A DNA stretch of 64,000 nt. Source: Candidatus Methanoplasma termitum. GTDB lineage: Archaea > Thermoplasmatota > Thermoplasmata > Methanomassiliicoccales > Methanomethylophilaceae. Below the pieces are notes generated by a model. It was not told the origin of the DNA and made no database searches. It was given only the letters and a program-made list of their open reading frames with translations. The stretch lies in assembly GCF_000800805.1 (NCBI RefSeq), contig NZ_CP010070.1, forward strand, positions 62,001 to 126,000, read 5' to 3'. Shown in pieces: positions 29,831 through 44,049 of this stretch; the stretch's first letter is position 1; each line of letters starts with the position of its first letter. A program made the position numbers and the translations under genes.

Positions 29831-30847
29831 TTATTGGCGTATTCCTAAGGATTTGTTGGTCTTTGAGATGGATACAGATGCATCCTCTTCCATCTTACAC
29901 ATGGACCTTATGCAGTCTATGTTCTCCGGCACGACGTCGGATTCCTGATGCACCGCTTGATAGTAGTAAAGCATTTTTCCCACAACCTTCACCCCATCCT
30001 CCCATACCACTATCTCATACATGTCGGATCTGTTCCTTCCCATCTCTCTTCCGAGCTCCATTATCTCTGCAGTGCCTTTGATCCCGCTGCTGCTTTTTAT
30101 GAGTTTCACACGCGGGGATGTTCTCATTATGTTGAGGATCTCGTCGGTGCCCGTCTCTTTTTCAAGTTCTACCACCACAGTGTGGAGGTGCATGAGGGTC
30201 GTCGATGCTTTAATCGCCATCGTGTTGATGTTCAGCCACGGCATTATGCTCTTTACATCCGGCCCGTGGTGTGTGGGCAGTTTAACGGTCGGCTCCAAAC
30301 CGTTGATCGGACCGCCTTTGCTGTCTCCGGGATCAACGCCCCTTCTGACCAGCGTGACATAAGCATTCTTTATCTTGATCTTCTTATCGATCGGGTTCAG
30401 AGTTCTGAGCAGTCCGGTCGTATTGCATGAGACGACCCTTGAGAATTGCGCACCCCAGGATTCGCTGTAGTTGGCGGTCGAGTTGAAGGATATGCCCGTC
30501 AAACTGTGATCCTCGCCGCCTTGGAATATCGCTTTGATCCCCGCCGCCTCATATTCGGCCTTGTATTTCTCTCCGACATCTCCGGGTGTGCAGTCCACCA
30601 TTATCTCTGCCGCTTTGTAAAGGTCTTTGATCGTTCCTTTGACAGGCATCTTTGCGTCCCTGAAGGCTTTCAGACTATCTTCCGGCACATATAAGCTGAA
30701 TCCTTTGTCAATTGCTGTCTGCGCCTCAAATGTCGGTCTCGTCTTTGTTACTCCGACCACTTCCATATCGTTTTGTGCTTTTACCGCATCAGCCACTCTT
30801 TTGCCGATAGTGCCGTAACCGTTAATCCCAACCTTTACTTTTGACAT
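29831..30847 (-). CDS. gap: Glyceraldehyde-3-phosphate dehydrogenase, archaeal type II
   Basis: The 338-residue enzyme has the Rossmann start VKVGINGYGTIGKRVADAV, the catalytic cysteine in VVSCNTTGLLRT, RRGVDPGDSKGGPINGL and HHGPDVKSIMPWLNINTMA, all typical of the archaeal phosphorylating GAPDH (NADP/NAD). It likely runs mainly toward gluconeogenesis in a methanogen (inference). A TATA-like TTATTTTATC lies about 30-40 bp upstream on the minus strand. It precedes pgk. Confidence 0.96.
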   Translation of the reverse strand: MSKVKVGINGYGTIGKRVADAVKAQNDMEVVGVTKTRPTFEAQTAIDKGFSLYVPEDSLKAFRDAKMPVKGTIKDLYKAAEIMVDCTPGDVGEKYKAEYEAAGIKAIFQGGEDHSLTGISFNSTANYSESWGAQFSRVVSCNTTGLLRTLNPIDKKIKIKNAYVTLVRRGVDPGDSKGGPINGLEPTVKLPTHHGPDVKSIMPWLNINTMAIKASTTLMHLHTVVVELEKETGTDEILNIMRTSPRVKLIKSSSGIKGTAEIMELGREMGRNRSDMYEIVVWEDGVKVVGKMLYYYQAVHQESDVVPENIDCIRSMCKMEEDASVSISKTNKSLGIRQ

Positions 30848-31252
30848 CGGGTCCCTCTGGTTCCTAATAGTAAACAGATAAAATAATCTTATGTGTCGCC
30901 GGTGTCAGTGGACACGGACTCGCAGTTTGTTTCTGCACTTTGGCCGGCAAGTTGTAACAGGATGCGGGAATGCAGTAAGATAATTTTACACATTGAAATA
31001 TGGCCGGATAGTAGATCAGAACCCGATCTTGATTTACCGATACAATCGCGGTATGAGATAAATGTTAATATATGATAACTTTCTATAGATATGGTTATAG
31101 CGGTCTTAACTGAAGACAGAGGGACTCATACGGGGGGTGAATGAGGTCCGGTGGCTTTATTCTATGCTATTCGGGCCACATCCCTCTCCGATGATTCTGC
31201 CGGTCGTTTCAGGTTACGACTTTATATGTTAAAAAACAGGAGGGGGGCAAAA
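30848..31252. other. Gene-free spacer between gap and the giant surface gene
   Basis: This 405-bp spacer holds the divergent promoters. Toward gap there is TTATTTTATC. Toward the giant gene there are two candidates: TTAATATATG at about 31064-31073, giving a leader of some 150-160 nt, and TTTATATGTT at 31221-31230, which is too close to the ATG to leave the strong Shine-Dalgarno in the transcript. A short hairpin GTGTC-AGTG-GACAC lies near 30902-30915. I see no coding frame or known RNA in it. Confidence 0.5.
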
Positions 31253-34200
31253 ATGAAATTCAATTCATACAAGAGCAGGCGCATGTCGACACTGGTAGTT
31301 TTGGCTGCAGTGTTGGTATTGCCTGGAGCATTTGTAGTAATGGCGGTAGATTTCGATCAATCATCGGATTCGTCGGCGGAACCGCCGACCGACACAGATT
31401 ATAGGATCCTATCGTCCGACTCATACACAGTTCAAGTAGGTGACGGAACAGATTGGCAAGATCTTGCCGTAAACGTCACAAGTATTCAATCCGCCATCGA
31501 GGAGATCAATACGAACGCCGCCGGCAGAGCATGTTCTATAACATTTTGGGGAGATATAGGTGCGAACCCGTATTCACCCGGCATATTGGATATCGGAGCA
31601 GTGGGCATATCTTTCAACAACGACTCGGTGACATGGGGCACCATCACGCTTTACGGCAAAGTAACGTCGATCGTCTCCGGTTCGCCGGGCCCGGCAGCCG
31701 CGACGGTCTCCGTCGAAGACGGCATAATCGTAGACAGTTATGCAGACATCTCTAACGATGTCGACCTCCCACAAATAGTCAACGCATATGTCATCTATAA
31801 CTCCGGTACGGTGAACATATTAGGCGGCACGGTCGCGTTCACTACCGTGTCGACCTCAGCCAAGCCCGGCTCCGCTTATAATATCTATAACGATGTCGGT
31901 GGAAAATTGGACATCTCCGGTAATGCTGTTGTGAAGTCTGTTTATGGCGTTGTAATATATAACGCATCCACGCTTGACGGGGCAGTAACGATCCGGGATA
32001 ATGCGCTCATCAGTTCCTCAGGTTCCGGTACGGCAATTAATAACTATCCCACATCAACGACCGACACGACGTTAAAGATCTTTGGCGGTACTGTGGAGAA
32101 CATAAGCACGGGTGATGCAATATGTAACGGCCAATCGGCGAATATGGAGGTCAACGGCAGTACGGTAACGATCAAGGCGGGAGCAGGTACAGGTAGTGCA
32201 ATTTCAAACAGCGGGGTGTTAAATATTTTTTCAACATCCCCAATTGGCATCACAAGCGCTGCCACACATCTCACAGTAAACACAGGCACGATTGATAACT
32301 TGGGCATAGTGAACATATATGGCGGCACAGTTGAGAACACATCCTCCACCTCCGGCATCCGTTCAGGTGCGATATGGAACACCAACGGTGCGACGGTAAA
32401 TATCAGCGGAGGCATAGTGAAGGCGAATGCCGGCCCGGCGATCTATAATCTAGGGAACGTCAGTGTTTCCGGCGGCACCGTCACCAGTCAGAGCAGCACT
32501 AACGGCCAAGGCACCATAATGGTCGCTTCAAGTGCCTCGGGTACGCTGACCATGACCGCCGGCACAGTCGAGAACACATCGACAGGTACCAATGCTGTTG
32601 CGATCTACTGTGCCAATTCGGCAAGCACGGTGAGCATAAGCGGCGGCACGGTGCAGCTGAGCGGCGCAAGCGCCACAGGCAGCAGGGCAATTCATTTTAC
32701 CTACGGAACATTGACAATGACAAACGGCGATGTGAAGATCCTCAGCGGTGCAAGCACCGGGATCCTCATCAATCCCGGAGCAACGGCGAACATATCCGGC
32801 GGCACGGTCACGGCGATCACAGGCCCGGCAATTCAGAATAACGGAACGGTCAATATTTCCGGAAGCGCCAAGATTACCAGTGCGAACAGCAGTTCCACAC
32901 AAGGCACCATTTTGAATGGTTCAGCGAGCAGTGCCGGTATGCTGACCATAACCGCTGGCACAGTAGAGAACACATCGGCCGGCAGCAGTGCAACCACGAT
33001 CTACTGCACGAATGCGGGAAGCACAGTGAGCATCAGCGGCGGCACGGTGCAGCTGAGCGGTGCAAGTGTCGCAGGCAGCAAGGTAATTAACATATCCGCA
33101 GGAACGCTGACAATGACCAACGGCGACGTGAAGGTTCTCAGCGGCGGAGCAGGCACTGGGATTATCACCGGTTCCACAGGAACGGTGAACATCTCTGGCG
33201 GCACGGTCACGGCGAACACCGCTCCGGCGATATCCAATTCAGGAACGGCCAATGTCTCGGGAAATGCCAAGATCACCAGTGCGAACAGCAGTACCTCCGT
33301 AAGAGGCACCATTGTGAATAATTCCGGGGGCGTTTTAAACATCTCCGGCGGCTTGGTGGAGAACACCTACACCGGCAGTACCGTCAATAATGGTGCTGTT
33401 GTGATTCTGAACAGCTCTGCTCTCAACAACGCAGTGAACATATCCGGCGGAACGGTGCAGAACAATTCCACAGGCGACAATGTAGCCAACAGCCCGACCA
33501 TCTACAACAATGCTGGAGGAACGATAAGCATCTCTGAGACAACACCCCTCGTCCCGACCCTGATACAGAATTTGGGCGATGGGGGAGCGATATACAACAC
33601 CGCCGGAGGAACGATAGATATCTCCGGCGGCAAGGTCACCAGCAAGAACGCCAACTCTGCCTCGGGTACGATCCTGAGCAATAACAACGGCGTGTTGAAG
33701 ATATCTGGTGGCACAGTGGACAACACGTCCACCGCCACCACTGCCAGAACGATCTCCAATCAGTCTACTGGTGGAGTAAACATCTACGGCGGCACGATCC
33801 AAACAATCAATGGCAGAGCGATCGATAACAGCGTTGCATTAGGAAGCATAAGCATCAGCGATGCCCTGATCCAGGCGACCGGCACGGGCATAGCGATCGA
33901 CAACAGAAATGTGTCGGGGTCTATCATGATCGTCAACAGTACTGTCCAATCCGACACTGGCCTGGCAATCTCAAATATAGGAAGCATAAACATAATCGGC
34001 GGCGATTTCATGTCGAATGCCGCTAAAGCAATCGACACCACAGGTCCGCTTTCCTTAGGCGGGGATCCCTACGTTAAGGGCAGGATCAGCGCACCGAAAG
34101 AAAAGATAACAGCATGGAACGAGGAGTTCAACACCGACCCTCTCGTAGGCAGTAATGTTTACTATATCGAAATAACAACTCCTGCTGTAGGCGATAAAGC

Positions 34201-37200
34201 GGTGTTCCAAGGCGCGAGCGCTGATTGGAAGTTCGAGTATTATGACTCGACCTTCTACTTGGTCCCATCCAACGGGGACCTTCTCCTGGGACAGCCAGTG
34301 TATGAATACAGGATAATATATGGCGATAACAGCGGCGGCACTCAAACCTTCACTGCTCAGGTAAAGATCAGCGCAGGCTCCACCGCTTACTATTGGGAGG
34401 ATCTAACATTCCCCATCAGCGGGGTCGATAAGCCCGTACAAGATTCTGTTGATGCCATCAAGGCCAATGCAGCAGGCAACCCATGCTCGATAACATTCTG
34501 GGGAGACGGAAACGAAGAGGACTATAACACTTCGCTGGACACTGGAGAGGCCGCCATGACATTCAACGGCGGAGCAACAGGCAAAGATTGGGGAAAGATC
34601 ACACTCTACGGCAACCTTTCTGGAACTCCCACGACGAGTCTGGTCACAATAAGCAATGGGGTCACGGTCGACAATGAGGCGACCCTCGCCAACAACTCAA
34701 TATCTACTGGCAACACGGTGACTGTCAGCAACAGTACGTTCAACGTCAACATCGGCGGCAAGGTCCAAAGGCCCAACACCTCCGTCCTCGCTTCCGGCTC
34801 GACTATCACCGCTACCGGAACGGCAACAGTGAACATCAACGGTGGCTATGTGATTTCAGAACTTACTCAGTCTGCGATATACTGTTCGGACAACACGGTG
34901 CTGAACATATTCGACGGTACGGTGCAGGGAGAGGGGACCGCTGTAGGATTATCGGGCGGCGCGGCCATGAATATATCAGGCGGCAACATAGAGTCTACTA
35001 ATTCGACCGACGGACACGCGATCGTCAGCGACAGCAACGGAAAGATCACAATAGATCAGATCCCGGGCAAGGTCACAACAGTGACATCATACAGCCCCAC
35101 AGCCGCTGTTGTCATTTCCGGAGGCACGACAGCTGCCACATTGCTTGAGATCAAGGGAGGTTTGGTGGGAAATGCCTCAACCTCTCCGACAAGCGCAGCG
35201 ATCAGCATCGCCGATTCTGGCACAGTAATCATAACCGGCGGTAACGTCATGACGATGGGCGGTTACGCCATCAAGGCAGGCGCAGATGTATATGTGGAAC
35301 TGGGCGGAGATCCGACAATCAACGGCATGATATACGCAGGGGTAGAAAGGATAAGCGTGATAGTATCTCCGGATGCACCAGCTTTCGATCCGACCGCTAC
35401 ATACACCATTGATATATTCAACCCGGCATTCGGTGCCAACGCAGTAATCAACGGTACGGCGTTCTCTGATAACTTCATACTTGGTCCTATTTCGGCAAAC
35501 CAAGGATATTTCCTTGCAAAAAGCGGAGCCGACATCATTCTCAGTGCGTTCTCCATCACCTACGACGCCAACGGCGGAACGGGCGCACCCGCAACGGAAA
35601 CGGACCTCATACCCGGAACATACAACCTGTCATCGACAGAGCCCACCCACTCGGACATCGGTGGATCGCCGGTGCTGTTCATGGGATGGTCCCTCGAGCA
35701 GGTCGGGGTCCTGATATACGGCGACCCGGTACCTCCTCTTAACACGGATGTCCTGATAGTCAACGCGGACGTCACGGTCTACGCTGTATGGGGAATAGAC
35801 ACCAACAGCAACGGCATACCCGACGTCACCGAGACAGGATTCTCGCTGATATATGACGCCAACGGCGGAACGGGCGCACCCGCAACGGAAACGGACCTCA
35901 TACCCGGAACATACAACCCGTCATCGACAGAGCCCACCCACTCGGACATCGGTGGATCGCCGGTGCTGCTCATGGGATGGTCCCTCGAGCAGGTCGGGGT
36001 CCTGATATACGGCGACCCGGTACCTCCTCTTAACACGGATGTCCTGATAGTCAACGCGGACGTCACGGTCTACGCTGTATGGGGAATAGACACCAACAGC
36101 AACGGCATACCCGACGTCACCGAGACAGGATTCTCGCTGATATATGACGCCAACGGCGGAACGGGCGCACCTGCAACGGAAACGGACCTCATACCCGGAA
36201 CATACAACCTGTCATCGACAGAGCCCACCCACTCGGACATCGGTGGATCGCCGGCGCTGTTCATGGGATGGTCCCTCGAGCAGGTCGGGATCCTGATATA
36301 CGGCGACCCGGTACCTCCGCTTAACACGGATGTCCTGATAGTCAACGCGGACGTCACGGTCTACGCTGTATGGGGAGTAGACACCAACAGCAACGGCATA
36401 CCTGACGTCACCGAGAACACATACTCCGTCACCTACGACGCCAACGGCGGAACGGGCGCACCGGCGAAGGAGACAGGCCTCCTCGACGGAGCACACACCC
36501 TGTCCCCGACGGCGCCGACCCACGCGCAGCAGGGCGGATCGGACGTCCTCTTCATGGGATGGTCCCTGGCTCAGACGGGCGTCCTCGCAAAGGGCGACAC
36601 CGTGCCGGCACTCGTCACATCGGTGACGATCAGCGGCAACGATGAGACCGTCTACGCTGTATGGGGAATAGACACCAACAGCAACGGCATACCTGACGTC
36701 ACCGAGAACACATACTCCGTCACCTACGACGCCAACGGCGGAACGGGCGCACCGGCGAAGGAGACAGGCCTCCTCGACGGAGCACACACCCTGTCCCCGA
36801 CGGCGCCGACCCACGCGCAGCAGGGCGGATCGGACGTCCTCTTCATGGGATGGTCCCTGGCTCAGACGGGCGTCCTCGCAAAGGGCGACACCGTGCCGGC
36901 ACTCGTCACATCGGTGACGATCAGCGGCAACGACGAGACCGTCTACGCTGTATGGGGAATAGACACCAACAGCAACGGCATACCTGACGTCACCGAGAAC
37001 ACATACTCCGTCACCTACGACGCCAACGGCGGAACGGGCGCACCGGCGAAGGAGACAGGCCTCCTCGACGGAGCACACACCCTGTCCCCGACGGCGCCGA
37101 CCCACGCGCAGCAGGGCGGATCGGACGTCCTCTTCATGGGATGGTCCCTGGCTCAGACGGGCGTCCTCGCAAAGGGCGACACCGTGCCGGCACTCGTCAC

Positions 37201-39424
37201 ATCGGTGACGATCAGCGGCAACGACGAGACCGTCTACGCTGTATGGGGAATAGACACCAACAGCAACGGCATACCTGACGTCACCGAGAACACATACTCC
37301 GTCACCTACGACGCCAACGGCGGAACGGGCGCACCGGCGAAGAAGACAGGCCTCCTCGACGGAGCACACACCCTGTCCCCGACGGCGCCGACCCACGCGC
37401 AGCAGGGCGGATCGGACGTCCTCTTCATGGGATGGTCCCTGGCTCAGACGGGCGTCCTCGCAAAGGGCGACACCGTGCCGGCACTCGTCACATCGGTGAC
37501 GATCAGCGGCAACGACGAGACCGTCTACGCTGTATGGGGAATAGACACCAGCAGCAACGGCATACCTGACGTCACCGAGAACACATACTCCGTCACCTAC
37601 GACGCCAACGGCGGAACGGGCGCACCGGCGAAGGAGACAGGCCTCCTCGACGGAGCACACACCCTGTCCCCGACGGCGCCGACCCACGCGCAGCAGGGCG
37701 GATCGGACGTCCTCTTCATGGGATGGTCCCTGGCTCAGACGGGCGTCCTCGCAAAGGGCGACACCGTGCCGGCACTCGTCACATCGGTGACGATCAGCGG
37801 CAACGACGAGACCGTCTACGCTGTATGGGGAATAGACACCAACAGCAACGGCATACCTGACGTCACCGAGAACACATACTCCGTCACCTACGACGCCAAC
37901 GGCGGAACGGGCGCACCGGCGAAGGAGACAGGCCTCCTCGACGGAGCACACACCCTGTCCCCGACGGCGCCGACCCACGCGCAGCAGGGCGGATCGGACG
38001 TCCTCTTCATGGGATGGTCCCTGGCTCAGACGGGCGTCCTCGCAAAGGGCGACACCGTGCCGGCACTCGTCACATCGGTGACGATCAGCGGCAACGATGA
38101 GACCGTCTACGCTGTATGGGGAATAGACATCAACAGCAACGGCATACCTGACGTCACCGAGAACACATACTCCGTCACCTACGACGCCAACGGCGGAACG
38201 GGCGCACCGGCGAAGAAGACAGGCCTCCTCGACGGAGCACACACCCTGTCCCCGACGGCGCCGACCCACGCGCAGCAGGGCGGATCGGACGTCCTCTTCA
38301 TGGGATGGTCCCTGGCTCAGACGGGCGTCCTCGCAAAGGGCGACACCGTGCCGGCACTCGTCACATCGGTGACGATCAGCGGCAACGACGAGACCGTCTA
38401 CGCTGTATGGGGAATAGACACCAACAGCAACGGCATACCTGACGTCACCAAGAACACATACTCCGTCACCTACGACGCCAACGGCGGAACGGGCGCACCG
38501 GCGAAGGAGACAGGCCTCCTCGACGGAGCACACACCCTGTCCCCGACGGCGCCGACCCACGCGCAGCAGGGCGGATCGGACGTCCTCTTCATGGGATGGT
38601 CCCTGGCTCAGACGGGCGTCCTCGCAAAGGGCGACACCGTGCCGGCACTCGTCACATCGGTGACGATCAGCGGCAACGACGAGACCGTCTACGCTGTATG
38701 GGGAATAGACACCAACAGCAACGGCATCCCGGATGTACTGGAAGATCCGAACCAACCTGAACACAAGCAATACACCATCACAGCGACAGCCGACTCAGGA
38801 TCCACAATAACCCCGAGCGGAAGGGTCGCAGTGCTGCAAGGTAACAGCCAAACGTTCACATTCAAGGCAAAGGTTGGCTACACAATAACGGAAGTGGTGA
38901 TAGACGGGCTCTATAGCTTAACCCAAGCGCAGATTGACTCTGGTATATACACTTTCACCGATGTGATGTCCAACCACACTATTGCTGTGAAGAGTGCAAT
39001 GGACTCCGGAGGAGGAGATGGTGACGGCGGCGCCGGAGGCGGAGACAATGGTATCGGCGGTAACGGTGATTCGAGCCGCTTTGGCGGTTCTTTATCGTTG
39101 GCTATCTATATGTTAGCGATCGCGACCGTGTTGCTGCTGTCACTGATAATCTTGCTGTGGGTAAGAGTAGGCCTGTTCCTGACTGTAACGATCGGAGAGG
39201 AGGCAGCGAAGGGCGCAGAGATCACCTATAGGGTGGAAAAGGACGGCAAGACCGAGAACGGAACCAAGTCAACGAACTCGAGAGGTAAGATCAGGATACC
39301 CGCAAAGAAGAACTCCATGGTCACAATCCCAATGGCGGCTAAGGACGGACACATTGCTGTAGGTCTGCCTCTGATAATCTCGATGGAGAACAGGAGAGAG
39401 TACAGAGAGATGGTCCTCAGGTAA
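31253..39424 (+). CDS. Giant repeat-containing surface protein (adhesin-like)
   Basis: This is a predicted 2,723-residue cell-surface protein. I start at the ATG at 31253, preceded by a strong GGAGGGGGG and followed by a signal peptide (MSTLVVLAAVLVLPGAFVV). Residues ~60-1430 form two homologous modules of parallel beta-helix type, each opening with an NAAG.(A/P)CSITFWGD segment and then many ISGGTV-like turns. Residues ~1433-2499 are eleven 97-residue units of the Listeria-Bacteroides/InlB B-repeat type (YDANGGTGAPA ... MGWSL ... VYAVWG), each ending in DTNSNGIPD. A bacterial-Ig-like segment, a Gly/Asp-rich linker, one transmembrane helix (~2613-2640) and an ~80-residue cytoplasmic tail follow. 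Probable role: adhesion or host/particle contact. The long antisense frame across the repeats is not real. Confidence 0.88.
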   Translation: MKFNSYKSRRMSTLVVLAAVLVLPGAFVVMAVDFDQSSDSSAEPPTDTDYRILSSDSYTVQVGDGTDWQDLAVNVTSIQSAIEEINTNAAGRACSITFWGDIGANPYSPGILDIGAVGISFNNDSVTWGTITLYGKVTSIVSGSPGPAAATVSVEDGIIVDSYADISNDVDLPQIVNAYVIYNSGTVNILGGTVAFTTVSTSAKPGSAYNIYNDVGGKLDISGNAVVKSVYGVVIYNASTLDGAVTIRDNALISSSGSGTAINNYPTSTTDTTLKIFGGTVENISTGDAICNGQSANMEVNGSTVTIKAGAGTGSAISNSGVLNIFSTSPIGITSAATHLTVNTGTIDNLGIVNIYGGTVENTSSTSGIRSGAIWNTNGATVNISGGIVKANAGPAIYNLGNVSVSGGTVTSQSSTNGQGTIMVASSASGTLTMTAGTVENTSTGTNAVAIYCANSASTVSISGGTVQLSGASATGSRAIHFTYGTLTMTNGDVKILSGASTGILINPGATANISGGTVTAITGPAIQNNGTVNISGSAKITSANSSSTQGTILNGSASSAGMLTITAGTVENTSAGSSATTIYCTNAGSTVSISGGTVQLSGASVAGSKVINISAGTLTMTNGDVKVLSGGAGTGIITGSTGTVNISGGTVTANTAPAISNSGTANVSGNAKITSANSSTSVRGTIVNNSGGVLNISGGLVENTYTGSTVNNGAVVILNSSALNNAVNISGGTVQNNSTGDNVANSPTIYNNAGGTISISETTPLVPTLIQNLGDGGAIYNTAGGTIDISGGKVTSKNANSASGTILSNNNGVLKISGGTVDNTSTATTARTISNQSTGGVNIYGGTIQTINGRAIDNSVALGSISISDALIQATGTGIAIDNRNVSGSIMIVNSTVQSDTGLAISNIGSINIIGGDFMSNAAKAIDTTGPLSLGGDPYVKGRISAPKEKITAWNEEFNTDPLVGSNVYYIEITTPAVGDKAVFQGASADWKFEYYDSTFYLVPSNGDLLLGQPVYEYRIIYGDNSGGTQTFTAQVKISAGSTAYYWEDLTFPISGVDKPVQDSVDAIKANAAGNPCSITFWGDGNEEDYNTSLDTGEAAMTFNGGATGKDWGKITLYGNLSGTPTTSLVTISNGVTVDNEATLANNSISTGNTVTVSNSTFNVNIGGKVQRPNTSVLASGSTITATGTATVNINGGYVISELTQSAIYCSDNTVLNIFDGTVQGEGTAVGLSGGAAMNISGGNIESTNSTDGHAIVSDSNGKITIDQIPGKVTTVTSYSPTAAVVISGGTTAATLLEIKGGLVGNASTSPTSAAISIADSGTVIITGGNVMTMGGYAIKAGADVYVELGGDPTINGMIYAGVERISVIVSPDAPAFDPTATYTIDIFNPAFGANAVINGTAFSDNFILGPISANQGYFLAKSGADIILSAFSITYDANGGTGAPATETDLIPGTYNLSSTEPTHSDIGGSPVLFMGWSLEQVGVLIYGDPVPPLNTDVLIVNADVTVYAVWGIDTNSNGIPDVTETGFSLIYDANGGTGAPATETDLIPGTYNPSSTEPTHSDIGGSPVLLMGWSLEQVGVLIYGDPVPPLNTDVLIVNADVTVYAVWGIDTNSNGIPDVTETGFSLIYDANGGTGAPATETDLIPGTYNLSSTEPTHSDIGGSPALFMGWSLEQVGILIYGDPVPPLNTDVLIVNADVTVYAVWGVDTNSNGIPDVTENTYSVTYDANGGTGAPAKETGLLDGAHTLSPTAPTHAQQGGSDVLFMGWSLAQTGVLAKGDTVPALVTSVTISGNDETVYAVWGIDTNSNGIPDVTENTYSVTYDANGGTGAPAKETGLLDGAHTLSPTAPTHAQQGGSDVLFMGWSLAQTGVLAKGDTVPALVTSVTISGNDETVYAVWGIDTNSNGIPDVTENTYSVTYDANGGTGAPAKETGLLDGAHTLSPTAPTHAQQGGSDVLFMGWSLAQTGVLAKGDTVPALVTSVTISGNDETVYAVWGIDTNSNGIPDVTENTYSVTYDANGGTGAPAKKTGLLDGAHTLSPTAPTHAQQGGSDVLFMGWSLAQTGVLAKGDTVPALVTSVTISGNDETVYAVWGIDTSSNGIPDVTENTYSVTYDANGGTGAPAKETGLLDGAHTLSPTAPTHAQQGGSDVLFMGWSLAQTGVLAKGDTVPALVTSVTISGNDETVYAVWGIDTNSNGIPDVTENTYSVTYDANGGTGAPAKETGLLDGAHTLSPTAPTHAQQGGSDVLFMGWSLAQTGVLAKGDTVPALVTSVTISGNDETVYAVWGIDINSNGIPDVTENTYSVTYDANGGTGAPAKKTGLLDGAHTLSPTAPTHAQQGGSDVLFMGWSLAQTGVLAKGDTVPALVTSVTISGNDETVYAVWGIDTNSNGIPDVTKNTYSVTYDANGGTGAPAKETGLLDGAHTLSPTAPTHAQQGGSDVLFMGWSLAQTGVLAKGDTVPALVTSVTISGNDETVYAVWGIDTNSNGIPDVLEDPNQPEHKQYTITATADSGSTITPSGRVAVLQGNSQTFTFKAKVGYTITEVVIDGLYSLTQAQIDSGIYTFTDVMSNHTIAVKSAMDSGGGDGDGGAGGGDNGIGGNGDSSRFGGSLSLAIYMLAIATVLLLSLIILLWVRVGLFLTVTIGEEAAKGAEITYRVEKDGKTENGTKSTNSRGKIRIPAKKNSMVTIPMAAKDGHIAVGLPLIISMENRREYREMVLR
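32500..33291 (+). repeat. Duplicated 396-bp beta-helix segment
   Basis: Two consecutive units of about 132 residues inside the giant gene share most of their sequence, e.g. VENTS...YC.N..STVSISGGTVQLSGAS followed by TLTMTNGDVK and AKITSANSS. Matching points at 32546 and 32942 are exactly 396 bp apart. It is a tandem duplication of several beta-helix coils, clearly more diverged than the 291-bp repeats downstream. Boundaries are approximate. Confidence 0.7.
35549..38749 (+). repeat. Eleven tandem 291-bp in-frame repeats (3 type A + 8 type B)
   Basis: The anchor sequence CTACGCTGTATGGGG recurs every 291 bp from copy to copy. Copies 1-3 (type A) read ATETDLIPGTYN..STEPTHSDIGG; copies 4-11 (type B) read AK(E/K)TGLLDGAHTLSPTAPTHAQQGG. 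Copies within a type are nearly identical at DNA level, with scattered single-base changes, and the type B DNA is visibly richer in G+C than the flanking genes. Such an array is expected to expand and contract, and its length in an assembly should be treated with caution. Confidence 0.95.
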
Positions 39425-39614: not shown

Positions 39615-41294
39615 ATGAAAGGATCTAGAGCACTACTCAAAATGCTGGAGGATAAGGGAGTTGAAACAATGTTCGGGTACCCGGGCGGTGTAGTGATCCC
39701 TATCTATGATGAAATATTAGACTCATCGATCCGGCACGTACTCGTACGCCACGAGCAGTGCGCAGCCCATATGGCGGACGGTTTCGCCAGAGCAAGCGGT
39801 TTCCCCGGTGTTTGTATGGCTACAAGCGGACCCGGCGCAACGAACCTCGTCACCGGAGTGGCGACCGCATATGCAGATTCATCGCCCATGATCGCACTGA
39901 CCGGTCAGGTCGGAACAGCATCTCTGGGATTGGATGCATTCCAAGAGGTCGACGCATACAGCCTTATGATGCCAATCACCAAACACAACTTCAGGGTCTT
40001 GGAATTGAACAGGCTTCCGCACGCGGTCCTGGAGGCGTGGGACATCTGCCAGACAGGAAGGCCGGGGCCTGTGCACATAGATTTCCCCGCAGACCAGATC
40101 AACGCTAACATAGACGAGGCCCTGCTCAATGAGACATTCGGCATCAAGGTCCCGAAAGAAGATTATTCGGGGATAGATCAGGCCGTACAATGGATAAAAG
40201 AAGCTCAGAGACCAGTCATGATGGTGGGCGGGGGAGTGATAAGCGCAAACGCCAGCGCAGAACTCATCAAACTCGCCGAAATGACGAACATACCGGTGAT
40301 AACGCCGCTTATGGGAATAGGCGCGATACCTACATCCCACCCCCTCTGCCTGGGATCGCTGGGTATGCATGGCCGCATGTGCTCGCTTCATGCGTTCAGG
40401 GATGCCGATCTGATCATTGCGATCGGGACAAAGTTCTCTGACAGAACATACAGCGCACAGACAGCTCCCGCAAAGTCATGTAGGATTATTCAGATCGATA
40501 TCGACCCTACGGTCTTCAACAAACACGGAAGAGAAAGGATCAACATAGCGGGGGATGCCAAGAAGGCAATGCGCATGCTTATCGATAAACTCGGAGGTCA
40601 CGTTGACAATCACAAGCCGTGGGATGCGAATATCCAGGATCTGAAGAAACGCTGCAAGTGCAAGTTCAATTACGATCAGACGCCGATCCTCCCTCAAAAA
40701 GTAATGTATGAGATCAACCGGATAACAAGCAAGGATCCGGGCGACTATATCATCACAACGGATGTCGGCCAAAATCAGATGTGGGCCATGCATTATCTTG
40801 AGATCGAAAGGCCGAGGCACTTCATATCGTCCGGAAGTTTCGGCACAATGGGATTCGGTCTTCCGTCGGCGATAGGCGCAAAAGCCGCATGCCCCGATAA
40901 GAAGGTCATGACCGTAACAGGCGACGGAGGTCTGCAGATGGTCATGCAGGATATCGCCACATCGGTCGCAGAGGATTTCCCCATCGTGATATGCTTGCTG
41001 AATAATGGGTGGTTGGGAATGGTCAGGCAGTGGCAGAAACTGTTCTGGAACAGGAGGTTCAGCAACACCGAGCTGAAAGCCGATCCGGATTTCGTTAAGA
41101 TCGCGGAGGCGTTCGGAGCGAAAGGGATACGCGTCGAGAGGTCCGGAGAGGTAGGCGACGCTCTGAAACAGGCATTCGACAGCGACGTGACCTGTCTTGT
41201 GGAGATAATGGTCGACTGCGAGGAAGACATTACTCCGATGATCCCGGCAAACCCGGCGCAGCCGTTGGTCAAAGGACGTTGCAAATTCCAATAA
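39615..41294 (+). CDS. ilvB: Acetolactate synthase large (catalytic) subunit
   Basis: This TPP enzyme condenses two pyruvates, or pyruvate with 2-ketobutyrate, in branched-chain amino acid synthesis. The 559-residue protein has the N-terminal VETMFGYPGG and the catalytic Glu in RHEQCAAHMADGFARA, the FAD/quinone-like middle domain, and the TPP motif GDGGLQMVMQD ... NNGWLGMV (GDG-N). The regulatory subunit gene ilvN, usually next in line, is absent; a zinc-ribbon gene and a surface-protein gene lie between this gene and ilvC. Confidence 0.95.
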   Translation: MKGSRALLKMLEDKGVETMFGYPGGVVIPIYDEILDSSIRHVLVRHEQCAAHMADGFARASGFPGVCMATSGPGATNLVTGVATAYADSSPMIALTGQVGTASLGLDAFQEVDAYSLMMPITKHNFRVLELNRLPHAVLEAWDICQTGRPGPVHIDFPADQINANIDEALLNETFGIKVPKEDYSGIDQAVQWIKEAQRPVMMVGGGVISANASAELIKLAEMTNIPVITPLMGIGAIPTSHPLCLGSLGMHGRMCSLHAFRDADLIIAIGTKFSDRTYSAQTAPAKSCRIIQIDIDPTVFNKHGRERINIAGDAKKAMRMLIDKLGGHVDNHKPWDANIQDLKKRCKCKFNYDQTPILPQKVMYEINRITSKDPGDYIITTDVGQNQMWAMHYLEIERPRHFISSGSFGTMGFGLPSAIGAKAACPDKKVMTVTGDGGLQMVMQDIATSVAEDFPIVICLLNNGWLGMVRQWQKLFWNRRFSNTELKADPDFVKIAEAFGAKGIRVERSGEVGDALKQAFDSDVTCLVEIMVDCEEDITPMIPANPAQPLVKGRCKFQ

Positions 41295-41691: not shown

Positions 41692-43797
41692 TCAATTTTT
41701 CTTCATTGACGAGAATATATTCTTTATTATCTCTGACAGCTTTTTGAACAACTCAACGAAGAAGAAAGTCTTGCCTTTACCTACGAACAGGAACCATATC
41801 ACTTCGATGAGAATAACAATTATCACTATGGCGAGAATGACATATAATGCGATGTTGGATCCACCACCACCCCCCTCCCTTTTATTCTCATTGTTTTTAC
41901 TCTCAACGGAATAACTGAGTATCGGCAATCCGGATCCTGTTCCTAATGTCCATACGTTGTCAAAGTCCCATCCGCTTATGGTATCGGTTCTGATCGTTGT
42001 TGTTCCGATGTAGTAGATGGAGTTGCCGCCCTTTGCATCAGACGAACTGGGTTTCATGTCAGATAGTGATTTTGAACCTGATCCTTGAGCGCCCGCCCTA
42101 GGACTGCCGTTGGAGTTTCCATCGACCCAGATCTTTCCCTCGTTGTATAGTACTTCATTGGCGGTATCGCCCTTTACTACCTTACCGGAAGTGAAATAAC
42201 AATTCACAATTGCTATGACCCCTGTCTCTATGTATGATCTGCCGACAATTCCTCCTGAGCATTGGTTTGTTCCGGACAGAGTAGCAACCGCCCCATCGTT
42301 ATAACAGTTGGATATCAAAATAAGGCCAGAAGATCCCGATTCAGCATACCCGATCACACCTCCGGCGCAAGGATAGTTGTTTGCTTTAACAGAGATCGAG
42401 CCTGTGTTATAACAATCTGCTACCTTTATGCGCGACCCGATCTCCGAATATACATAACCGATAATGCCTCCCGCTTCTGTTCCATATGCATAGGATGAGG
42501 TCGAACTGCCGCTGCCGGTGTTATAGCATTCACTGATCGATACCGATGCTGACTGGCTTGACATGATGGAACCCGCAATGCCTCCGGAGTCCGCCCAACC
42601 CTTCGTCGTCGACTCAGATGAAGTTATTCCGGTGTTGTAGCATTTGGAAAAAAGCGTATTCGATCTCTCTTTTTCTGCATATACAAGACCCGTAATGCCG
42701 CCGACGACCGCATCGGATGCGGTGGACACAGCATTTACGGTACCTGAGTTGTAGCATTCTATGTAAGACAACGTTGTCACCTGTTCTGTGTCTCCAGATA
42801 TGCCGCCTGCAAAAGCCACCCACCCCGTCGATGAAGCAGAGACAGTACCTTTGTTATAGCAGTTAGAAATAATCGCCCCCGGCCCGGTGCTAGTACCGAG
42901 ACTGTTATTAGTCAACGCCCCCACAATGCCGATGATGCCTCCCGCCAACGAACCCTGATAGGCAGTGATCGAGGAGATATGGCTGGTGTTATAGCAGTTG
43001 TCTATTGTTACGGGATCAGTTCTGTTAGCATCTGCTACGGCTGAAATTCCCCCTGCGGATGCGTAGCCGTTTCCGCTCGTTATCGCCGTCGCAGAACCGT
43101 TCACAATCCCTAAATTAGAGAAGTTGGCATTCAGGGTATATCCGAACAGACCGGCCAGAGCAAAATCGTTACTGGTTACATATATCGCCGTATTCATTCC
43201 CGAGATACGGTGGCCGTTACCGTCGAATGTTCCCGTGAACGGATTCTTGTCAGTACCTATCGGTGTAAAATTACCGTTACTGTTGAAAGTCACATTATTG
43301 ATGATCGTGGTACCGCCGCTTACCGCTGAGTTAATCCACACAGAATAAGCGAAAGGATAGCCGTCGAGGTATCCGCCCAAATATAACATGTTACTGCCCG
43401 AGCTGATATTGTCTAAGGTTATTTCCCCAATCGAATTGTTTTTGCTAACTGTCCCATACCACGCCTGTAAATCATTGATCCTTCCCACCGAAGGCGTAAG
43501 CTCTATACTCAGGCTGTTGCTTCCTGATTTTTTTACAGTGATATTTATGTTAGTTCCGCCGTTAGTGTCACCGTTGAAATCAATGTCTCGTGTCAAATAG
43601 TATTTTCCGTCCAGAGGATAACCTCCGTCGTTCCCTATCTTTGCGAGATCCTGGTAGTTCGAGATCGGTTTCCATGTTCCGTCATTGAAATTGTTCGCCG
43701 CACTGCTCTCAGACTTGTCCAGTGCAACTGGGACCAAGGACGCAAATACAAGCATTACTAACGTGATCACACACAGCAGAGATGATATTTTTTTCAT
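41692..43797 (-). CDS. Surface protein with GLUG-type repeats and C-terminal membrane anchor
   Basis: The 701-residue protein starts with a signal peptide (KKISSLLCVITLVMLVFASLV) after an AGGTGAT ribosome-binding site; the open frame upstream of the ATG at 43797 lacks such a signal. The body contains at least seven coils of the pattern CYNTGS.S......AGGI.G.V, the GLUG motif of bacterial IgA-protease-like and adhesin proteins, predicted to form a beta-helix. The C-terminus is a Gly5 linker, one transmembrane helix (ALYVILAIVIIVILIEVIW) and a lysine-rich cytoplasmic tail. It shares this anchor plan with the giant protein. It lies, inverted, between ilvB and ilvC. Confidence 0.85.
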   Translation of the reverse strand: MKKISSLLCVITLVMLVFASLVPVALDKSESSAANNFNDGTWKPISNYQDLAKIGNDGGYPLDGKYYLTRDIDFNGDTNGGTNINITVKKSGSNSLSIELTPSVGRINDLQAWYGTVSKNNSIGEITLDNISSGSNMLYLGGYLDGYPFAYSVWINSAVSGGTTIINNVTFNSNGNFTPIGTDKNPFTGTFDGNGHRISGMNTAIYVTSNDFALAGLFGYTLNANFSNLGIVNGSATAITSGNGYASAGGISAVADANRTDPVTIDNCYNTSHISSITAYQGSLAGGIIGIVGALTNNSLGTSTGPGAIISNCYNKGTVSASSTGWVAFAGGISGDTEQVTTLSYIECYNSGTVNAVSTASDAVVGGITGLVYAEKERSNTLFSKCYNTGITSSESTTKGWADSGGIAGSIMSSQSASVSISECYNTGSGSSTSSYAYGTEAGGIIGYVYSEIGSRIKVADCYNTGSISVKANNYPCAGGVIGYAESGSSGLILISNCYNDGAVATLSGTNQCSGGIVGRSYIETGVIAIVNCYFTSGKVVKGDTANEVLYNEGKIWVDGNSNGSPRAGAQGSGSKSLSDMKPSSSDAKGGNSIYYIGTTTIRTDTISGWDFDNVWTLGTGSGLPILSYSVESKNNENKREGGGGGSNIALYVILAIVIIVILIEVIWFLFVGKGKTFFFVELFKKLSEIIKNIFSSMKKN

Positions 43798-44049
43798 GCC
43801 ATCACCTTTTGATTTGTTGTCCCCTCTAACTGCCCCCCGAAGTTTCGAGAACGTGAATATATCTGCATAATAGGTATATAACCCACTCAGTGACGGTAAT
43901 GCGCCGGCAACTTTATTCTGCCATAAATACAGACCATCATACAAATGACAAAACAATAACGGCTGACCGCTGACAGCTCCCCGCGTGCGGGTCTGCGATA
44001 AGTATTAAGTGTATCGATTGATTGAACCCATTATCTTAAGGTGGAATTA

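Follow-up and report, generated by a model that had tools for sequence, protein, structure and literature searches.

An in-frame array of eleven 291-bp repeats in a putative surface protein gene of 'Candidatus Methanoplasma termitum', a candidate periscope-like stalk in an archaeon

Surface stalks of variable length have been described as a bacterial strategy and are often tied to immune escape. For the Periscope Proteins, a change in reach through the gain and loss of modules has been proposed as mechanism; these proteins were described from bacteria, and the founding papers make no mention of archaea (PMC8201768, PMC9704523). In gut methanogens, proteins of the PF09479 type are known from Methanomassiliicoccales and Methanimicrococcus (PMC9723798, PMC7883539), and InlB-B-repeat-type domains are reported to be common to gut archaea and gut bacteria (PMC9723798). 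Here we describe a repeat array from 'Candidatus Methanoplasma termitum' MpT1, whose complete genome is 1.49 Mb long and has 49% G+C (CP010070; PMC5011839). The window, that is the whole stretch of DNA analysed, comprises 64 kb and corresponds to bases 62001-126000 of this single-contig genome (1,488,669 bases). We think it probable that the gene encodes a periscope-like adhesin stalk which would be able to grow and shrink in steps of 97 residues by in-frame recombination.

The gene is located on the forward strand at 31253-39424 of the window and, according to the ORF list and its translation, encodes 2723 amino acids if the likely ATG at 31253 is used. The mechanical open reading frame begins with a GTG at 31151; the ATG at 31253 was chosen by reading the sequence and has an AGGAGG just upstream. 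There are only two long homopolymers, a G6 at 31132 and a G6 at 31242; the latter (31242-31247) is flanked by the ribosome-binding site and the ATG, and is a short but possible slippage site. Residues 10-36 (31280-31360) form a hydrophobic segment (Kyte-Doolittle maximum 2.87) which may be a signal peptide or an anchor. It is followed by a region of approximately 1400 residues with recurring ISGGTV-type motifs (31361-35551), which could be parallel beta-helix-like, judging by motif resemblance only. For residues 1-1433 no Pfam family was found at E-values up to 1, hence no beta-helix domain, and no PHROGs family either; since no family model recognises this region, an outward-facing, distal "head" with a role in binding is a guess. 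Downstream of the array lies a beta domain (38753-39079) that is common to the sister surface proteins (matches in the same genome with up to 76% identity) and shows a weak match to Flg_new_2, under the cut-off. A transmembrane region (residues 2610-2649, 39080-39199, Kyte-Doolittle maximum 2.81) and a tail of about 74 residues (39200-39424) complete the protein, and about nine sister genes of the same genome have this anchor and tail in common with it (44-68% identity). The hydrophobic ends suggest that the repeat protein is exposed on the cell surface, and we infer a membrane-anchored, adhesin-like protein with a role in adhesion.

Comparison of the units showed that 11 copies of exactly 291 bp each are arranged head to tail and in frame between 35552 and 38752, without a single indel. 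Tandem Repeats Finder placed the array at 35551-38727 (period 291, 10.9 copies, score 4674) and reported no other array of long period across the 64 kb of the window. The units fall into two types. Units 1-3 (type A, 35552-36424, 3 x 291 bp) differ from each other by 8-17 bases, units 4-11 (8 x 291 bp, 36425-38752) belong to type B, and between the types 76-93 of the 291 bases differ (26-32%). Copies 4-10 of type B show 0-4 differences per 291 bases, units 5, 6 and 8 are identical, and the sequence is perfectly periodic across 36644-37342. Unit 11 differs from the other type-B units at 13-15 positions, nearly all of them within its last 25 bases, the place where the array joins unique sequence. 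Apart from this junction there are five variable sites inside type B, all of them transitions, of which four are non-synonymous and one is synonymous. The end of unit 3 is B-type, whereas units 1 and 2 end differently; the A/B junction is located at 36378-36434, and an exact lag-291 match of 265 bases starts at 36378. The G+C content is 0.59 in type A and 0.65 in type B, compared to 0.52 in the remaining gene and 50.2% in the window. An antisense ORF of 852 amino acids (36212-38770, reverse strand) runs along the array; it was rejected as a gene and is regarded as a by-product, since one antisense frame of the unit is free of stops and is repeated along the array.

Mean dS is about 0.006 within type B (junction excluded) and 0.03 within type A, whereas between the cores of A and B (unit positions 13-225), which are as unlike as units of different genes, it reaches 0.75. 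The edges of the A and B units are nearly identical including the silent sites (5' codons 4-13 and 3' codons 76-94). When A1 is compared with B5, the third base agrees in 18/19 of the identical residues of the 3' edge, as against 17/36 of those in the core (Fisher p = 0.0004). Protein selection does not explain this edge identity, since in one sister gene the 3' edge is 89% identical in amino acids, but third-position identity there is only 0.47-0.53. Near-identical edges around strongly diverged cores thus argue for recombination inside the gene. Variants are also shared by non-adjacent type-B units (G46A in units 7 and 10, C219T in units 4 and 9), which indicates block duplication or conversion. 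Together, the A/B mosaic and these shared variants point to intragenic recombination as a process that shaped the array. Because dS is so much lower within type B than between the cores, the data support an amplification or homogenisation that was recent for type B and less recent for type A. An ancient array preserved by protein selection was considered and is ruled out by the silent sites together with the empty site in congeners.

The original prediction had described eleven near-identical repeats with conserved third codon positions, recently amplified or homogenised, in a surface protein of an archaeon. The 11 in-frame copies without indels and the archaeal host stand, and the surface protein agrees with the N-terminal hydrophobic and the C-terminal transmembrane segment. 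Near-identity and conserved third positions apply within type B and within type A but are lost between the two cores; accordingly, recency was borne out for type B and, to a lesser degree, type A, whereas a joint amplification of all eleven copies is unsupported because the divergence between the A and B cores is old. Recombination inside the gene, likewise proposed, fits the mosaic and the variants common to non-adjacent copies. Phase variation has to be abandoned: the unit consists of 97 codons and never shifts the frame, so that a change in copy number would be a change in length only.

A match to PF09479 above the gathering score of 27 was obtained for the whole ORF (90.6 bits) and for a pair of type-B units (33.7 bits); a type-A pair alone remained without a match to PF09479 at E below 1. 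The AlphaFold model of a single type-B unit, calculated with an alignment of 36 sequences, reached a pLDDT of 96.5; the two-unit model was poor (pLDDT 47.3), probably through the shallow alignment. Among 350,542 PDB chains searched with Foldseek, the best six matches were all to the InlB B-repeat (2y5p) or to SHIRT of Sgo_0707 (7avh, 7avk), with probabilities of 0.47-0.96 and E-values of only about 0.1-0.2; the top match was 2y5p (probability 0.96, E-value 0.095, TM 0.49/0.62). Searching the PDB sequences with a profile of the unit returned nothing but insignificant matches to cytochrome oxidase. Each unit is predicted to be an InlB-B-repeat/SHIRT-like beta-grasp domain with an EF-hand-type loop, and from the single-unit model the repeats are predicted to fold individually. 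The pattern DxNxNGxxDxxE, with one relaxed position tolerated, matched in 11/11 units, giving one EF-hand/TSP3-like loop (DxNxNGIPDxxE) per unit at 35798-38743, the first at 35798-35833 and the last at 38708-38743. Presumed ligand residues are altered in unit 7 (N to S) and unit 10 (E to K), and for unit pairs no TSP3 or EF-hand Pfam family was listed at E-values up to 1. The stalk contains 114 D+E versus 19 K+R and no cysteine. The loops may bind calcium, and the stalk as a whole might be an elongated rod.

The gene is flanked by GAPDH on the left (29831-30847, reverse strand; Pfam) and by the acetolactate synthase large subunit on the right (39615-41294, forward strand; Pfam TPP-enzyme domains and synteny). 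In eight congeners these two genes are direct neighbours with a spacing of 122-146 bases (523 in one species), and the promoter regions at both sides align with the two flanks in the window. In a ninth congener (G003) the gap is about 1.65 kb long and contains no large surface-gene frame. None of the congeners examined has an ortholog of the surface gene at this locus; the same eleven copies in related species, which the original prediction had named as evidence against itself, were not seen in these genomes. Likewise, no congener examined has a relative that covers the C-terminal part over its full length. Since the flanking genes adjoin in eight congeners, the surface gene is most simply a lineage-specific insertion. 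The best match of the unit outside the family was found in 'Ca. Methanimicrococcus labiotermitis' (47% over 96 residues), followed by gut Clostridia, which fits the reported occurrence of such domains in gut archaea as well as gut bacteria (PMC9723798). A second surface gene is located in the window at 41692-43956 (reverse strand, a frame of 754 amino acids with repeated CYNTG-type motifs and a C-terminal membrane segment), between acetolactate synthase and KARI; those two are adjacent in congeners G004, G006 and G007, which marks this gene as another lineage-specific insertion.

The array is not the only recent duplication of this kind in the genome. In 308 kb of sequence, picked around related surface genes, sister surface genes were found to contain at least five further tandem duplications that are recent and in frame. 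They include two-copy duplications of 264 bp (97%), 300 bp (96%) and 291 bp (98%), an array of 270 bp x 2.7 (94%), an in-frame duplication of 801 bp x 2 with one difference in 807 bases (G000:C1:993350-994957, L058), and an array of 495 bp x 4 (98.8%) in a surface protein of 2382 amino acids (G000:C1:1252638-1254674, L059). The latter protein has the same C-terminal tail as the product of the array gene, and dN of its 495-bp module is far below dS. The sister duplications use different modules. Near-duplicates of 537 bp and 565 bp were kept off the in-frame list because of frame breaks, a 273-bp near-duplicate was left out because its ungapped identity goes down to 0.89, and a 258-bp array in G024 (97%) was dropped as support since it lies outside any open frame. 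Two giant surface genes (G000:C1:1187532-1199601, L061, and 1428752-1433441, L068) are split by a frame change that sits in or beside near-duplicates with periods of 565 and 537 bp; these splits could stem from errors in sequencing or assembly, from decay or from a genuine switch of frame. In the congener G001, a 90-residue FTITEGTN module, which differs from the 97-residue unit, occurs approximately 26 times (81% identity) in a frame of 5434 amino acids (L134, 6772-13941). Three further loci of the genome were recorded in passing: an array with period 61 and about 53 copies at 68%, which looks like a CRISPR array (G000:C1:1021385-1024609, L071), a C-terminus with dockerin-like duplicated DINRSGSVTVADYSAI motifs (G000:C1:560643-566102, L054), and a leftover piece of the shared C-terminal tail, interrupted in frame by one TGA and one TAG (G000:C1:920056-920298, L072), which is probably a decayed sister gene.

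A periscope-like stalk would consist of 11 InlB-B-repeat-like beta-grasp modules in tandem, every one of them closed by an acidic loop that probably binds calcium, and the protein would be ordered as secretion segment, beta-helix-like region, stalk, beta domain, transmembrane segment and short tail. Growth of the stalk would result from in-frame unequal recombination between the 291-bp units. An older block of three type-A units might have been joined to one type-B unit, which would then have been multiplied to eight, and further exchange would uphold the near-identity of the copies. Each exchange would add or remove whole modules with the frame intact and thereby change the distance of the outer part from the cell, as has been proposed for the Periscope Proteins of bacteria. 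Ongoing length variation of the stalk is what we infer here; the analysis covered one genome of the species.

The same array could be a mere snapshot of ordinary unequal crossing-over, or of slippage, in a surface gene rich in repeats, with length changes that have no function. Such a neutral tandem duplication would fit the ratio of non-synonymous to synonymous sites in type B, which is near the neutral expectation, as well as the similar duplications of other modules in several sister genes. However, frame and unit length are perfectly kept across all 11 copies, the periods of the clearest sister duplications are likewise multiples of three, and dN in the 495-bp array is far below dS; we therefore regard a purely neutral origin as unlikely.

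How many copies the cell really has is a separate matter, and the original prediction was right to doubt the assembled number. Identical type-B copies may have been added or lost where the repeats outlast the reads, for which units 5, 6 and 8 and the perfectly periodic stretch offer the opportunity, and the frame breaks in or beside near-duplicates of two other repeat-rich surface genes would agree with such errors. On the other side, the nine distinct unit sequences in one ordered array set a floor of at least about nine real copies, and the genome is a single contig, so that a partly artefactual copy number appears improbable. The least probable of these alternatives is concerted evolution, with gene conversion acting on a constant number of copies, in which the copies would be old and their number structurally fixed. 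Although the shared edges and variants of types A and B fit conversion, the absence of the gene from the locus in congeners speaks against an old conserved array, and strong conversion along the whole array would have erased the difference between A and B, which are still distinct.

Beyond this one gene, we put forward with considerable reserve that the genome contains an archaeal periscope counterpart at the level of a family: lineage-specific, transmembrane-anchored proteins in which stalk modules have repeatedly been multiplied in frame and homogenised through recombination within the gene, and whose reach might differ between cells of one population. All components belong to known kinds; notable are their occurrence in an archaeon and how often such events are found in a single genome. 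A clear case in an archaeon that lives in the insect gut, a setting free of adaptive immunity, would help to tell whether such stalks vary for the sake of adhesion and reach or of immune evasion, and the array provides a locus for surface-protein length variation in an archaeon that can be sized by PCR.

Several known systems resemble parts of this protein. In 'Ca. Methanimicrococcus labiotermitis' (L147), which also lives in the termite gut but belongs to another order, there are likewise several tandem units with a similar loop (DTTGNGVPDV); those units are diverged and show no recent amplification in the available piece, in which the array is cut by the contig end. Methanogen ALPs with parallel beta-helix repeats (PMC7883539) have a similar long N-terminal region of the ISGGTV type and a presumed surface location, whereas the protein described here has no beta-helix Pfam match, and ALPs by definition need no stalk of domain repeats. 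The PF09479 proteins of gut methanogens (Flg_new, Listeria-Bacteroides repeat/InlB B-repeat) share the domain family, the gut-methanogen host and the presumed function in adhesion; in contrast to them, the units here are longer (97 amino acids), carry an extra EF-hand-type loop and make up an array that was homogenised recently. The Periscope Proteins (SasG, Rib and Sgo_0707 with SHIRT; PMC8201768, PMC9704523) are anchored by LPXTG instead of a transmembrane segment, and their class is defined by length variation between strains, whereas the present array is known from one genome. Like them, however, it belongs to a single surface-anchored chain with a C-terminal anchor and consists of tandem, highly identical domains (type-B units, last copy excluded), and SHIRT of Sgo_0707, one of the founding Periscope Proteins, ranks with the best structural matches to the unit.
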